Origin: Candidatus Scalindua sp.
GTDB taxonomy: Bacteria; Planctomycetota; Brocadiia; Brocadiales; Scalinduaceae
DNA length: 36,858 nucleotides
Reading direction: 5' to 3'
Assembly (NCBI GenBank): GCA_030748215.1
Contig: JASMMK010000059.1
Coordinates: 1 to 36,858, forward strand
This document shows positions 4,864 through 18,764 of the stretch, piece by piece. The position numbers and the translations under genes are program-made. Numbering within the stretch: position 1 is the stretch's first letter; every line of letters begins with the position of its first letter. The notes beneath the pieces are model-generated. The model saw only the letters and a list, made by a program, of their open reading frames with translations, made no database searches and was not told the DNA's origin.

Positions 4864-5634
4864 TTATTCTGCAATCTTCTTGCCTTTAACAAGAGGAACA
4901 AATCGTACAGGAATGGTGTTTTTTATTTCTATATTTCCGCCTTTATCTTTTTCCACAATCAGCAGATCCTGACTATATGAATTATTATCAACAGGAATTA
5001 CCATCCTTCCTCCAGGTTTAAGTTGTTTTATTAAGGGATCAGGAATCTCTGGTGCAGCAGCTGTAACAATTATTGCATCGAATGGCGCTTTCTCCGGCAA
5101 ACCGACCCCACCATCCGATATCTTTACTTCAACATTATCATATCCCAGACTCTTCAGCCGTTCAGCAGCCTGCACTCCCAGCTCTTCAATTATTTCTATG
5201 GTGTATAACTTTTTAACGATAGTAGATAGAACAGCCGCCTGGTAACCCGAACCAGTTCCAATCTCAAGTACAATAGCATCACTATCAACATCCAGCATTT
5301 CAGTCATAAGCGCCACTATGTATGGCTGGGAGATCGTTTGTCCTGACCCTATTGGCAATGGTTGGTCAAAGTAACTGCCACGTCTGTATCCTACCGGGAC
5401 AAACATATGCCTCGGCACACTATTCATTGCATCAATAACTTTTTTATTTTTTATACCTCGTGCTACTATCTGCTGCTCAACCATCATCTCTCTTTGTCTA
5501 GCATAGTCTTCTGCCTTTGATTTTGCTTCCCTGCCGTTTGCAATAGAAACATCCCCCCTGTTGACAAAGGGGCGGAAACTGTAAAAGATGCATGATATAA
5601 TAATCACGATTATTATAAGGGCCAGAAATTTCAT
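4864..5634 (-). CDS. pcm: Protein-L-isoaspartate O-methyltransferase, membrane-anchored or exported
   Basis: The enzyme methylates L-isoaspartyl residues in damaged proteins using S-adenosylmethionine, starting their repair. The catalytic domain (about 45-256) carries PRHMFVP, PLPIGSGQTISQP (93-104) and the SAM-binding motif EIGTGSGYQAAVL (124-136). The N terminus is a strongly hydrophobic helix (3-20), which is not part of cytoplasmic PIMTs, so this copy is probably anchored in the membrane or exported to the periplasm (inference). The length of 256 exceeds the usual 210-220 because of this extension. It is divergent from the HARP gene across a 165-bp gap that should hold both promoters. Confidence 0.88.
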   Translation of the reverse strand: MKFLALIIIVIIISCIFYSFRPFVNRGDVSIANGREAKSKAEDYARQREMMVEQQIVARGIKNKKVIDAMNSVPRHMFVPVGYRRGSYFDQPLPIGSGQTISQPYIVALMTEMLDVDSDAIVLEIGTGSGYQAAVLSTIVKKLYTIEIIEELGVQAAERLKSLGYDNVEVKISDGGVGLPEKAPFDAIIVTAAAPEIPDPLIKQLKPGGRMVIPVDNNSYSQDLLIVEKDKGGNIEIKNTIPVRFVPLVKGKKIAE

Positions 5635-5799: not shown

Positions 5800-6405
5800 A
5801 TGAAGAAAACGAAGAAAATAAAGAACTTAAAAGAAGAATGTTTTGTTATAGATACAAGCATTTTTACTAATCCAGATGTTTATATTACTTTTGGAAGAAC
5901 ACCAACCACTGCTCTAAAGAATTTCCTAAAACTGATAGCAAAAATGGAATGTCCTAACTTTTACATGCCTCCATCGATTTACGAAGAACTCATGGATTTT
6001 GTAGATATTGAAAAGATACCAAAGGATCTTCAGGTAAGAATTTTCCAAAAGCCATCCATGAAGTACGAGATGAATGTTCCCTCTTTCCTGCTCTATGAGT
6101 TAATAGAGGATGTTCGTCATCGAATAGACAAGGGCTTAAGGGTAGCAGAGCAGGCGGTGAGAGAAGTAATAACTGATAACGAACCGGAGATAATTAACAA
6201 CCTCAGGAGAAAATACCGTTCGGCATTAAGAGAGGGAATTATTGACAGCAAGGAGGATGTCGACTTAATATTATTGGCAAGGGAATTGGATGGTGTTCTA
6301 GTTACTGCCGATAAAGGCATAATGACCTGGGCCGACAAGCTGGGAATTCGTTATGTCGAATCACGCAATCTTCGTGGGATCATAAACAGTCTAGTCAAAA
6401 TGTGA
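5800..6405 (+). CDS. HARP-type RNA-free ribonuclease P ("RNA ligase partner" PIN protein)
   Basis: A 201-residue PIN-domain metallonuclease of the family named "RNA ligase partner, MJ_0548 family" (UPF0278). The family includes Aquifex Aq_880, the protein-only enzyme that removes tRNA 5' leaders (HARP, homolog of Aquifex RNase P). From memory it closely follows Aq_880. The metal-binding acidic residues are present: Asp18 in [10 protein letters not shown], Asp153 and Asp155 in [17 protein letters not shown], Asp171 in [13 protein letters not shown]. The helical arm [13 protein letters not shown] and [15 protein letters not shown] is also kept. ATG at 5800 has no strong Shine-Dalgarno. It converges on the RNA ligase gene, overlapping it by 15 bp. 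The same window encodes RnpA. Confidence 0.9.
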
Positions 6406-7530
6406 ATGGCCATCCCAGTGATTTTGAATCATTTCATATGAAGGAAAACATCTCCTGATATATTCTACATACCAGTATTGTCCATTTTTTTCCTGCCGAA
6501 CCAGATTGGCGTCTACTTTACACTTATGAAAATGTTCGAACAATTTCTTGATATTCTGCTTTTTGTTGAACCTGACTTTAAATCTTTCAGTTATCATTTC
6601 TCCATCTGCAACCTTCTTCACACTCTCAAAAAGAGGCTGTAGTAAGGGGCTTCACCTGTTTTTTTAAGAAATTCCTCGCTTAAAGGCAAGTCGTGCTCCA
6701 TAAGATAAAAAAGCGATCTTAACATTCTGTTAGTAAAGAACTCTGCTTGATATTCTGTCATTAGTGCAGAAGTCACCTTCATATCCCTCAGGCACGACCC
6801 TGCCGTAACATATTTTACTGTTTTCTCAAATGGAGCTGTTGGTTTAAATACCAGTCCCTCACAACCCTTTTCGTTCAGATACTGAATGTGTTTCTTCAAA
6901 CCTTTAATGTCAGAAGGGGTATAACTACCAAACCGTGTAACTGTTGGGATTTTATACTCATCAAACAACTTATATCTCTTTTCTACGGGAATTTCCTGTT
7001 CACCACTCATGGTTCTTATGTCAAATGCAAAAAAACTAACGTCCTCAGTCACATAAGGAGGTGATTCTGCATTGTATGGGTTCTCAGGTCTCGCTATTTC
7101 ACCACACACAACCAGGTTCGGATTTTCATTAAAAAAATTATCATAATCAAAGAAATCTACCAATCTATCGGTACTGAACGGACAAACATAACTCCCTCTG
7201 GTAAATGCAAACACATGACCCTGATGACATGCCCTGAACCTTCACAATCCTCACATTATAGCCATCTACCTTTTCTTCTGCATAAAACGGATTATTAAAA
7301 GCCTGCTTGATACCATTCTCCAGATGCATAATCCTTGCTATACGTGGGAAGTCATATATAATTCCCGAATCAGTTACTACTGTTCCTTTTCTTAACTCTC
7401 CTACCTTTTTAATTATCCTATAGTAAGTAATCCCTTCAAACTCATCTGCAATTATACTAAGGCTTTCAAGAGACTCATTCCATAAGCCTTCAGTTGTATT
7501 TGCTTTTGAAACAATTTTCAAGACACTCAT
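6391..7530 (-). pseudogene. RNA ligase, Pab1020/Rnl3-like, with two compensating frameshifts
   Basis: An ATP-dependent RNA ligase split by two single-base breaks. Read through both, it is 380 codons including the stop, the normal size for the Pab1020 (TIGR01209) family. Frame one (7530 to about 7221) has the nucleotidyl-transfer motif EEKVDGYNVR with Lys87. Frame two (about 7218 to 6650) has EIARPENPYN, GLVFKPTAP and KYVTAGSCLRDMKV (motifs IIIa-V). The original frame then gives KKVADGEMITERFKVRF to the stop at 6391. Break one is an extra base in GGG (plus strand ccc 7219-7221). Break two is a missing base in the C-run opposite 6646-6649. Pab1020 ligases join or circularise RNA. Either true decay or assembly error; neither break removes a motif. 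Confidence 0.85.
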
Positions 7531-7915: not shown

Positions 7916-9379
7916 ATGTACATTATTTTTGGTTGTGGTGTAACCGGAAATGCTGTTGTTGATGCATTGAACAATGCCGGCAGAGAGGTGTTGATTGTAG
8001 ATAAGGATGAGAGTGCTTTATCTTCATGGAAGGAACTTGGTATTAAAGTGATGGTTTCAGACATGAATACATTTGATCTGAACTCTCAGTATCGCGACAA
8101 CTCAATTATATTTGCGATTCTAACCGGGGATTTTACTAGCAACCTGTCACTAGCAAAGAAACTAAAGGAGAAACTGCCAAACAATTTTGTCCTTGTAAAA
8201 GCATATAATAACGAAGAGGCTAAAGCGCTGGAGGCTAACGGTGCCGATATGATATTGAATACGGGAGATGTTCTGACTAATACCGTATTGTCCGCGTTTG
8301 GAAATGTCAAAATGAAGCATTCCGCTTTTACATTAGCTAACATGATCAAGGAATCAAACGGCAAAGAGATGGCAATCTTCCTGCAGGACAATCCTGACCC
8401 GGATGCTATTGCTTCGGGACTAACCCTGCAACATATCTGCAAACACTGTGACGTAGAAAGCAAACTTTATTATGGCGGAGATATCAGTCACCAGAATAAC
8501 AAGGCATTGATCGACTTATTAAATATAGATTTGATAAGCATAAAAACAGAAGAGGCTGCAATGGACGTTGTACGATCTTCTGGCAAGATTGCATTAATAG
8601 AAGCATCCATTCCTTCAAGAAACAACGTCTTACCTGAAGAAGTTACACCTAATTTGATATTTGATCACCACCCGGTAGATATCAATTTAGTAAAGGGCGA
8701 TTATGTTGATATTCAAACTGACATAGGTGCAACCGCAACAATCATGACTAAATACATTCGCCAGTTAAACCTGGAACCGGATATATCTCTTGCTACAGCT
8801 TTATTATATGGAATTCGTACAGACACAAAGGAGTTTACCAGAAATACATCTCCGGATGATATGAAGGCGGCAACATATCTCTCTCCGCTAGTGGATAGAA
8901 ACATTATGAGCCAGCTAGAGCATCCTCCCATGGGTCTGGAAACTCTGGATATTATTGGCAGAGCAATTAACAACAAAGAGATCAGGGGTACATACCTTAC
9001 ATCATTTGTAGAGTTTATCAGCGATAGAGACGCATTGCCACAGGCAGCAGAGATGATGCTTCATTTAGAGGGCGTGTACACGGTCCTTGTTTTTGGAATA
9101 AACGACGACAAGATTCAGCTATCTGCAAGAAGCAGGGATTCAAAAATAAACCTTGGTCAGATCCTGCAAAACGCTTTTGGTGAACTAAATTCAGGAGGCC
9201 ACGCAACGATGGCAGCCGGAGCAATCAAGCTTGAAAAACTTGTTGATGCAAATGACAAGACCTCTCTCTTAAAGGCGACTTCCGATGATGTCAAAAAAAG
9301 ATTTTTTTCGTCAGTAGAAGCTGAGTTAGAATTGAAAATAAAACCAATAGATGCAGAATCACAGGTCGATCTGGTTTGA
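7916..9379 (+). CDS. TrkA-N/DHH-DHHA1 fusion phosphoesterase
   Basis: A 487-residue fusion. The N-terminal Rossmann domain (1-135) begins MYIIFGCGVTGNAVVDAL and resembles TrkA-N/RCK_N nucleotide-binding domains. A DHH phosphoesterase domain follows, with LQDNPDPDAIASG (156-168, metal-binding Asp161 and Asp163) and FDHHPVD (249-255). The DHHA1 domain ends with GGHATMAAGA (427-436). Relatives include NrnA-type oligoribonucleases, which also hydrolyse pAp, and GdpP-type c-di-AMP phosphodiesterases. The TrkA-N/DHH architecture is one I associate mostly with archaea. RCK_N domains bind nucleotides, so ligand control of the hydrolase is plausible (inference). GGAG precedes ATG 7916. It converges on fxsA with a 26-bp gap. 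Confidence 0.85.
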   Translation: MYIIFGCGVTGNAVVDALNNAGREVLIVDKDESALSSWKELGIKVMVSDMNTFDLNSQYRDNSIIFAILTGDFTSNLSLAKKLKEKLPNNFVLVKAYNNEEAKALEANGADMILNTGDVLTNTVLSAFGNVKMKHSAFTLANMIKESNGKEMAIFLQDNPDPDAIASGLTLQHICKHCDVESKLYYGGDISHQNNKALIDLLNIDLISIKTEEAAMDVVRSSGKIALIEASIPSRNNVLPEEVTPNLIFDHHPVDINLVKGDYVDIQTDIGATATIMTKYIRQLNLEPDISLATALLYGIRTDTKEFTRNTSPDDMKAATYLSPLVDRNIMSQLEHPPMGLETLDIIGRAINNKEIRGTYLTSFVEFISDRDALPQAAEMMLHLEGVYTVLVFGINDDKIQLSARSRDSKINLGQILQNAFGELNSGGHATMAAGAIKLEKLVDANDKTSLLKATSDDVKKRFFSSVEAELELKIKPIDAESQVDLV

Positions 9380-9974: not shown

Positions 9975-11435
9975 ATGGCAAACTTAGTAAGCAAAACCAG
10001 AAAAAAACTGATAATCAAGGAGTTAGATCCATGCACTGACTTGTTGAGGATCTTTCATCATACCCAGGCCCACTCAAAGAACTTTTTTCTTGATAGTGCT
10101 AATAACAATGAGAAGACAGGAAGGTACTCGTTCTTAGGATACGACCCCTTTCTTACCGTTATGTCAAAGGGCAATAATATATTAACGCAAAATAGTAAGA
10201 GTATTACCAGGAAAACCGGAAATCCCTTTGATGTGCTGCGACAGCTATTAAACAACTTTCAACTGGAAAATCAATTTGAGCCTATTCCATTTACATGTGG
10301 GGCTGTTGGATACTTTTCCTACGACCTGTGCCATTTCATCGAGAAAATTCCTGATACCACAATAGACGATATTGAATTCCCGGAAATGTGTTTCAGCTTT
10401 TATGATACAATTATTGCTGTTGATCATCTTGAGAACAGGAGTTTTTTACTATCGGTAAATATTAATCAGAATTCTCTAAAAAGTACAGCGAAAAGAGTTG
10501 GCCATGTGTTAGAGATGATTCGAAATAGATCGAATATACCTCATGAAGAGGAATCACAATTTAACGGCAGCAGAATAAAACGAAAAATAATAAGTAACTT
10601 TTCTAAGGAAAACTATTTAAGGGCTGTAGAGCGTGCAAAACAATATATCAATGCAGGCGATATTTACCAGGTCAATCTTTCACAGCGCTTTCAGACACAG
10701 ATAGAGACTTCACCTTATGAATTATATAAAAGATTAAGAGAAATAAATCCTGCATCATTTTCAAGCTACTTAAAATTTGACAATAAATACGTTATCAGTT
10801 CTTCTCCGGAAAGATTCCTTTCTCTACAAAATGTTCCGGATAGTAACAGCAAACGGAGTGATAACGTGGTGCGTAAAATACAAACAATGCCAATTAAAGG
10901 AACCAGGCCCAGAGGCAATGATGAAAAAATAAATAAAAAGATGCAGGAGGCGCTACTCTCAAGCAAGAAAGACGATGCAGAATTAGCAATGATTGTGGAT
11001 CTCGAACGAAACGATCTTGGACGAGTATGTAATTATAATACTGTAAAAGTGACAGAGAAGAAAAAACTAGAGGCACATCCTACAGTGTATCATCTTGTTG
11101 CAACAGTCGAAGGAGAGCTACACTCAAGGTATGATGCTATCGACCTGCTGAAAGCTACATTTCCAGGAGGTTCAATAACAGGTGCACCGAAAGTAAGGGC
11201 CATGCAGATTATTGACGAATTAGAGCCTAACAAACGAAGTGTATACACAGGCTCGATGGGATATCTGAGCTTTAATGGAAATATAGATTTCAACATTGCG
11301 ATAAGAACCTTTTTAGTAAAGGACGATCATATCTTCTTTCAGGTTGGTGGTGGAATAGTTGCTGATTCAGATCCGGAAGACGAGTATCAGGAGACGCTAC
11401 ATAAGGCCCATGCTTTGATTGAAACGCTTGAGTAG
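9975..11435 (+). CDS. pabB: Aminodeoxychorismate synthase component I
   Basis: A 486-residue chorismate-binding enzyme that converts chorismate plus ammonia to 4-amino-4-deoxychorismate for folate synthesis. The N-terminal domain has GRYSFLGYDPF (49-59). The catalytic domain (about 215-485) has AGDIYQVNLSQRF, PIKGTRPRG, DLERNDLGRV, PGGSITGAPK and FQVGGGIVADSDPE. The PIKGT Lys is typical of PabB, where TrpE usually has PIAGT. The pabC gene immediately downstream supports PabB over anthranilate synthase. The glutamine amidotransferase subunit (PabA/TrpG) is not in the window. TrpE remains the main alternative, since the two are close homologues. Confidence 0.85.
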   Translation: MANLVSKTRKKLIIKELDPCTDLLRIFHHTQAHSKNFFLDSANNNEKTGRYSFLGYDPFLTVMSKGNNILTQNSKSITRKTGNPFDVLRQLLNNFQLENQFEPIPFTCGAVGYFSYDLCHFIEKIPDTTIDDIEFPEMCFSFYDTIIAVDHLENRSFLLSVNINQNSLKSTAKRVGHVLEMIRNRSNIPHEEESQFNGSRIKRKIISNFSKENYLRAVERAKQYINAGDIYQVNLSQRFQTQIETSPYELYKRLREINPASFSSYLKFDNKYVISSSPERFLSLQNVPDSNSKRSDNVVRKIQTMPIKGTRPRGNDEKINKKMQEALLSSKKDDAELAMIVDLERNDLGRVCNYNTVKVTEKKKLEAHPTVYHLVATVEGELHSRYDAIDLLKATFPGGSITGAPKVRAMQIIDELEPNKRSVYTGSMGYLSFNGNIDFNIAIRTFLVKDDHIFFQVGGGIVADSDPEDEYQETLHKAHALIETLE

Positions 11436-18410: not shown

Positions 18411-18764
18411 ATGGATCAAGGGTTTTCCAAGAAAGAGCGGTTACTAAAACGAAAAGAATTTCAGCTGGTTTTTGATAAAGGTGAGAAATTCGGGAACACT
18501 CAGCTTAAGATATATGCGCTGACAAATGGCAGCTCTGTCTCCAGGCTTGGCCTGGTCGTAGGAAGAAAATTTGGTAATTCACCCAGGCGCAATAGATTTA
18601 AACGAATCCTCCGAGAAGCATATCGATTGAACAAGAGTTTGTTGCACAGCGGTGCTGATATTGTTGTAATTCCAAGACCAGGGTTAACAGAACTCACGCT
18701 AAAGGCCATCGAAGAGGAATTCAAAGCAATCCTGGTACAAATTGACGATATGTTGAAGAAATGA
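18411..18764 (+). CDS. rnpA: Ribonuclease P protein component
   Basis: A 117-residue basic protein that binds the M1 RNA and the 5' leader of pre-tRNA in the ribonucleoprotein RNase P. The RNR signature is clear: SPRRNRFKRILREAYR (57-72), with the preceding LGLVVGRKFG strand. ATG 18411 begins a family-like N terminus (KKERLLKRKEFQLVFDKG). It overlaps yidD by four bases (ATGA). Unusually, rpmH is not upstream (lysS is divergent there); rpmH lies at 32899-33030. The organism also has the protein-only RNase P at 5800-6405. The RNA subunit gene is not in this window. Confidence 0.95.
   Translation: MDQGFSKKERLLKRKEFQLVFDKGEKFGNTQLKIYALTNGSSVSRLGLVVGRKFGNSPRRNRFKRILREAYRLNKSLLHSGADIVVIPRPGLTELTLKAIEEEFKAILVQIDDMLKK

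Follow-up and report, generated by a model that had tools for sequence, protein, structure and literature searches.

The window, by which we mean the whole stretch of 36,858 nucleotides of Candidatus Scalindua sp. DNA that was analysed, carries at positions 5800..6405 of the plus strand a gene for a HARP, a protein-only RNase P (PIN_5 / TIGR03875) of 201 amino acids with catalytic residues Asp18, Asp149, Asp153 and Asp171. Convergent with this gene, and overlapping its 3' end, is a gene of the Rnl3 RNA ligase type (TIGR01209, Lig_C; 6391..7530, minus strand), which is present as three open reading frames. The pair is bounded by a gene for protein-L-isoaspartate O-methyltransferase (PCMT; 4864..5634, minus strand), which delimits the HARP-ligase site on one side in most of the Scalindua-family loci examined, and by a gene for a TrkA-N/DHH/DHHA1 protein (7916..9379, plus strand), which marks the other side in many of them. 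The latter product fuses a TrkA-N nucleotide-binding domain with DHH/DHHA1 phosphoesterase domains. Further along the window an intact rnpA (18411..18764, plus strand; TIGR00188, PF00825) encodes the protein subunit, 117 amino acids long, of the RNA-based RNase P. A role of the site in anti-phage defence was considered and set aside: with a limit of E 0.01, HARP, the TrkA/DHH protein and the middle piece of the ligase, which was the piece taken into this search, matched none of the PADLOC models. The match of PCMT to part of the PADLOC model mad2 (5.5e-26) is probably due to its methyltransferase domain.

The first-pass annotation had assigned the protein at 5800-6405 to the HARP family over its whole length, and this assignment stands. 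The match to TIGR03875, a model described as 'RNA ligase partner protein', is full-length and scores 206.3 bits against a cut-off of 95.3, the match to PF08745 (PIN_5) scores 210 bits against a cut-off of 27, and seven distinct HARP sequences of solved structure match with E values from 1e-108 to 2e-48. HARP is present in a single copy: with E values as high as 1 allowed, the genome has no second PF08745 match. The annotation also listed Asp18, Asp153, Asp155 and Asp171 as conserved. All four are present, but the list missed Asp149 and included Asp155, which is not among the four indispensable residues. In Aquifex Aq_880 the latter are D7, D138, D142 and D161 (PMC8266387, excerpt), and these correspond, when mapped by order only and not by alignment, to D18, D149, D153 and D171 here. 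Among the best 80 of 185 relatives, each of these four positions is Asp in all 80, and D155 is Asp in 79. For PbHARP the catalytic residues are named as D151, D155 and D173 (PMC9051087, excerpt), and we related these to the present protein through an alignment free of gaps, in which the numbering is inferred to be shifted by 2. With the same offset R106, R114, R136, R140, R144 and R121 are taken to be R108, R116, R138, R142, R146 and R123 of PbHARP (PMC9051087, excerpt); the arginines for pre-tRNA binding and cleavage are thus in place, and in the best 80 of the 185 relatives the first five are kept in 80 of 80 and R121 in 78. The closest named relatives by HARP, among the 185, are Candidatus Scalindua (the best at 93 and 91% identity, with a range of 75 to 93% over all records of that name), and HZS_alpha is present in this genome, so the host is very likely an anammox planctomycete.

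The RNA-based enzyme is encoded in the same genome, as the first-pass annotation had proposed from rnpA. The product of this gene scores 87.3 bits with TIGR00188 (cut-off 38.35) and 103.7 bits with PF00825, and it contains a motif that we take to be of the RNR type. On another contig, outside the window, lies a full-length class A rnpB (G000:C15:11394-11778), which matches RF00010 with 292.5 bits over model positions 1-367 of 367. Since rnpB is present, rnpA is not a relic, the reading that the annotation had tied to an absence of rnpB. As far as can be judged from sequence, the RNA-based RNase P appears complete and coexists with HARP. A separate observation concerns possible substrates. ARAGORN reported 35 distinct tRNAs from 30 tRNA loci (L103-L132) of 41 matches, in this genome only, of which 19 end in an encoded 3' CCA and 16 do not; the latter might offer a basis for the possession of two RNase P enzymes.

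The RNA ligase that had been noted beside HARP is indeed there, but it is split. The open reading frames at 7165-7530, 6618-7214 and 6391-6621, all on the minus strand, match different parts of TIGR01209 (16-101, 102-291 and 301-373 of 375) and occupy two frames, and only the middle piece passes the cut-off of the model. No single open frame here holds the nucleotidyltransferase and C-terminal domains of an Rnl3 ligase, and in ten relatives of the Scalindua family the ligase is a single stop-free open frame. As assembled, the gene is probably non-functional.

An error of assembly or sequencing might have produced this split. The three pieces retain 73 to 82% identity to the intact copy L003, and their dN/dS values against it (0.263, 0.164 and 0.237) are close to those of the intact pair L003-L004 (0.310, 0.116 and 0.168). 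These ratios suggest little or no relaxation in the pieces, so that the break would be either recent or an assembly error. The window ligase, however, differs from all four of the relatives compared by two separate frame-changing insertions, and one of these exceeds 10 bases and is therefore no simple homopolymer slip. In the same comparison PCMT, HARP and FxsA had zero gaps against two relatives, and in three further neighbours the gaps mostly kept or restored the frame: AKR had one 3-base gap and, with one relative, a second gap of 2 bases at the edge of the alignment, TrkA/DHH had small gaps that cancel against one relative, and in the gene at 9975 the gaps sum to a multiple of three. Moreover, the ligase is broken in other genomes of the family, which makes a real break plausible here as well. 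We therefore regard an error as rather unlikely.

The family to which the window belongs (f1) was represented by 17 genomes, mostly draft assemblies, including that of the window (G000). Both genes are intact in 10 of the 17 (G046, G049, G050, G051, G052, G053, G054, G056, G058 and G059). In three others, G000, G045 and G047, HARP is intact and the ligase is broken, each time in a different manner: it is split into three open reading frames in G000, reduced to a C-terminal remnant in two frames in G045, and internally deleted in G047, where about 30 N-terminal and 100 C-terminal residues remain in one frame. The G047 remnant corresponds to a small open reading frame at L083 5490-5858 (G047:C51). 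In two more genomes no more than fragments of HARP are left, in the same syntenic position: residues 13-54 in G057, which has no ligase match, and residues 169-201 in G060, which has a C-terminal scrap of the ligase. PCMT and TrkA/DHH flanks mark this site in G047, G057 and G060; in G045 HARP is flanked by PCMT and TrkA/DHH is on another contig, as it is in the relative G046, where both genes are intact. The remaining two genomes have neither gene. In G048 (79% complete) about 7.9 kb from the TrkA/DHH side to the contig end held no match to HARP or PCMT and a ligase match of only 22 residues (E 0.2), and in G055 (82% complete) a TrkA/DHH match was absent as well.

A tree built from five neighbour proteins groups G047 with G057 as sisters and places G000, G045 and G060 apart. 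Its root is not firm, because the outgroup G017 possessed a single one of the five genes and its placement was weakly supported. If G047 and G057 are scored as a single case and only losses are allowed, the pattern points to at least four separate loss events; should the split in G000 be an assembly error, the number falls to three.

HARP itself is under strong purifying selection wherever it is intact, also where the ligase is not. Among the Scalindua pairs listed, those with finite dS gave HARP dN/dS values of 0.035 to 0.097, a range to which pairs with saturated dS, having yielded no ratio, do not contribute; all of these values are pairwise and not branch tests. The pairs that include G047 (as L010), with its internally deleted ligase, gave 0.040 to 0.046. 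Similarly, HARP pN/pS was 0.136 over 189 codons between G045, which has a ligase remnant, and G046, and 0.155 between G046 and G059, in which both ligases are intact.

Across the 62 genomes of the order HARP exceeded the cut-off in 45, distributed by family as 13 of 17 in f1, 31 of 33 in f4 and 1 of 1 in f5, with none in the 2 genomes of f2 or the 9 of f3. The ligase exceeded the TIGR01209 cut-off in 43 genomes, or 42 with a full or nearly full gene when the window genome, in which the middle piece alone passes, is excluded. With the same exclusion, 41 genomes possess HARP together with a full or nearly full ligase, and 35 of these carry them as convergent neighbours on the same contig, separated by 352 bases or fewer. 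The remaining six retain both genes at separate places, on different contigs in five genomes and 1.19 Mb apart in one. A ligase without HARP was seen once, in G043, where the match is at a contig end. Conversely, G061 (77% complete) possesses HARP while lacking a ligase match, but there the HARP gene stops about 200 bases short of the edge of a 5.4 kb contig. Four control genomes gave a HARP-family match; in two of them, Haloferax volcanii and Thermus composti, the ligase search gave no match, and the control Methanosarcina acetivorans carries HARP as well as the ligase. Finally, we considered whether HARP tracks anammox metabolism, and this was ruled out. HZS_alpha (hydrazine synthase) was found in 40 of the 62 genomes. 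Both f2 genomes and 6 of the 9 in f3 are among these, so that 8 of the 11 genomes of these two families (G001-G011) carry it, and none of the 11 has a HARP or ligase match. HARP is therefore patchy among likely anammox bacteria.

The 45 genomes with HARP were also searched for the RNA-based enzyme. An rnpB match at E <= 0.001 was found in 40 (including G041, where the match is partial and below the cut-off), rnpA in 39 and both in 35; in these main searches only G038 (58% complete) had neither. A laxer rnpB search, which covered G041 and the five HARP genomes that had lacked an rnpB match, gave no match in G046, G047 or G059 (92 to 95% complete), two matches in G012 (E 0.36 and 0.86) and a partial match in G038 (E 6e-4). 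A repeat rnpA search in the six HARP genomes without rnpA plus G043 gave one match only, with an E value of 0.3. G046, G047 and G059 are thus candidates for HARP-dependent planctomycetes, or else have assembly gaps. Because all three carry rnpA, and because G057, the sister of G047, has rnpB, assembly gaps are the simpler reading, and a takeover by HARP in these three is not favoured.

Considered together, these results make it probable, in our judgement, that the gene at 5800-6405 encodes a genuine HARP that serves as an accessory or backup RNase P, that housekeeping is left to the RNA-based enzyme, and that HARP has a use without the ligase. The assignment to the family, the conserved residues, the finding of both rnpA and rnpB, the condition of the assembled ligase and its pattern across relatives are direct results, and the activity, the division of labour and the order of loss are inferred. 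HARP would remove the 5' leaders of pre-tRNA or of tRNA-like RNA at a metal-dependent PIN site formed by Asp18, Asp149, Asp153 and Asp171, and housekeeping would fall to the complete RNA-based enzyme, with rnpA in the window and rnpB on another contig. In many relatives the tail-to-tail Rnl3 ligase probably takes a later step, with ends or RNAs that HARP helps to produce as its substrates. In G000 and the two relatives G045 and G047, where the ligase is broken and HARP is intact, HARP would have a use that does not need the ligase. A functional tie between HARP and the ligase is likely in relatives and is not needed for HARP to persist. PbHARP, the nearest HARP of solved structure, showed weak cleavage of pre-tRNA in vitro, about 6% within 20 min (PMC9051087, excerpt). 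In archaea with both enzymes most of the activity is attributed to the RNP enzyme (PMC12153264; PMC10941002, the latter in excerpt). Against the accessory role, four recombinant bacterial HARPs failed at pre-tRNA processing (PMC12153264). Two further observations count against it: HARP is reduced to scraps in G057 and G060 and is therefore dispensable at least there, and an rnpB match at E <= 0.001 is missing from 5 of the 45 genomes with HARP.

The losses in the Scalindua family suggest, tentatively and with a probability a little short of even, that the module is dismantled in a fixed order, with the ligase lost first, repeatedly and independently, while HARP persists under selection; HARP may go later and the ribozyme stays. 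If this were true, the ligase would depend on HARP and not HARP on the ligase, and genomes such as G000 would be natural ligase knockouts. Searches of an open-licence library gave no report of a ligase-first decay series beside HARP, and the state of the module, with HARP kept and the ligase broken, may be the new part of the present results.

The most serious competing explanation is that the two genes form one pathway, in which the main substrate of HARP is a small RNA other than tRNA, cut at its 5' end and then circularised or sealed by Rnl3, so that RNase P would be a side activity. The close convergent arrangement in 35 of the 41 genomes with both genes speaks for it, as do the retention of both in the six genomes where they are not adjacent and the published finding of the ligase in 665 of 751 HARP-positive genomes (PMC12153264). 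We nevertheless consider it unlikely, given that HARP is intact and constrained in G000, with its split ligase, and in G045 and G047, with a remnant or an internal deletion. A hand-over of ends from HARP to the ligase has already been published as a hypothesis (PMC12153264), and the first-pass annotation had imagined one here; in this genome it finds no support, since two frame changes interrupt the ligase gene. The substrate of C/D-box maturation proposed in PMC12153264 is likewise unlikely here, because a fibrillarin search of this genome gave no match, in contrast with four archaeal control genomes, all of which matched. Partial fibrillarin matches occurred in 25 of the other 61 genomes of the order; none scored above 28.5 bits, and six narrowly exceeded the cut-off of 27.

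Alternatively, HARP may be a fading relic in this lineage, destined to follow a ligase that was lost first. This would explain the HARP scraps at the same syntenic site in G057 and G060, the sister relationship of G057 to G047, which has lost most of its ligase but kept HARP, and the stretch in G048 described above. The strong purifying selection on intact HARP, also without the ligase, argues otherwise, and we think this explanation quite improbable. Least credible, and rejected for these lineages, is a toxin-antitoxin system in which HARP would act as a tRNA-cleaving toxin of the VapC kind and the ligase as its antidote: PIN_5 membership, a weak VapC6 match (E 0.21) and the adjacency of the two genes are in its favour, but an antidote should be kept with an intact toxin, and in G000, G045 and G047 HARP is intact without a working ligase, the neighbouring pairs are convergent and do not form an operon, Haloferax volcanii and Thermus composti have a HARP-family match without a ligase match, and the idea has been discussed and thought unlikely at least for Thermococcus kodakarensis (PMC12153264).

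These results touch on the question of why some bacteria keep two unrelated RNase P enzymes. Anammox bacteria are not known as extremophiles, and 44 of the 50 genomes of the two families searched carry HARP, and these bacteria therefore provide another setting for this question. In published work HARP is tied mainly to extreme environments (PMC12153264). Relatives that differ in the state of ligase and HARP offer natural comparisons for the ideas of a backup enzyme, of small-RNA circularisation and of a toxin-antitoxin system. The coexistence of the two enzymes as such is known biology in a new host, because HARP together with rnpA and rnpB is already in print with Planctomycetes among the phyla (PMC10941002, excerpt), as is the link of HARP to the Rnl3 RNA ligase (PMC12153264); bacterial genera with both kinds of RNase P have also been reported (PMC6380272, excerpt).

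Three known systems are close to the one described here. In the HARP-Rnl3 pair of Seshadri and Gopalan 2025 (PMC12153264) HARP likewise has a neighbouring Rnl3 ligase (TIGR01209, Lig_C) in opposite orientation, and co-localisation of the two was reported for 127 of 164 bacterial cases. The present locus differs from those pairs in that its ligase is split and its host is an anammox-type planctomycete, from an order absent from the bacterial orders named in the main text of that paper. The PbHARP of Planctomycetes bacterium GWF2_40_8 (PDB 7e8k / 7e8o; PMC9051087, excerpt) is identical to the HARP at 5800-6405 in 167 of 201 residues, ungapped over the whole length, and shares its catalytic Asp and Arg positions; PbHARP has been crystallised and assayed, whereas the present protein is predicted from sequence. 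The founding HARP, Aquifex aeolicus Aq_880, belongs to the same family and has the same four indispensable Asp residues (PMC8266387, excerpt). A. aeolicus is without the RNA-based enzyme (PMC12153264), whereas this genome has both rnpA and a full-length rnpB.
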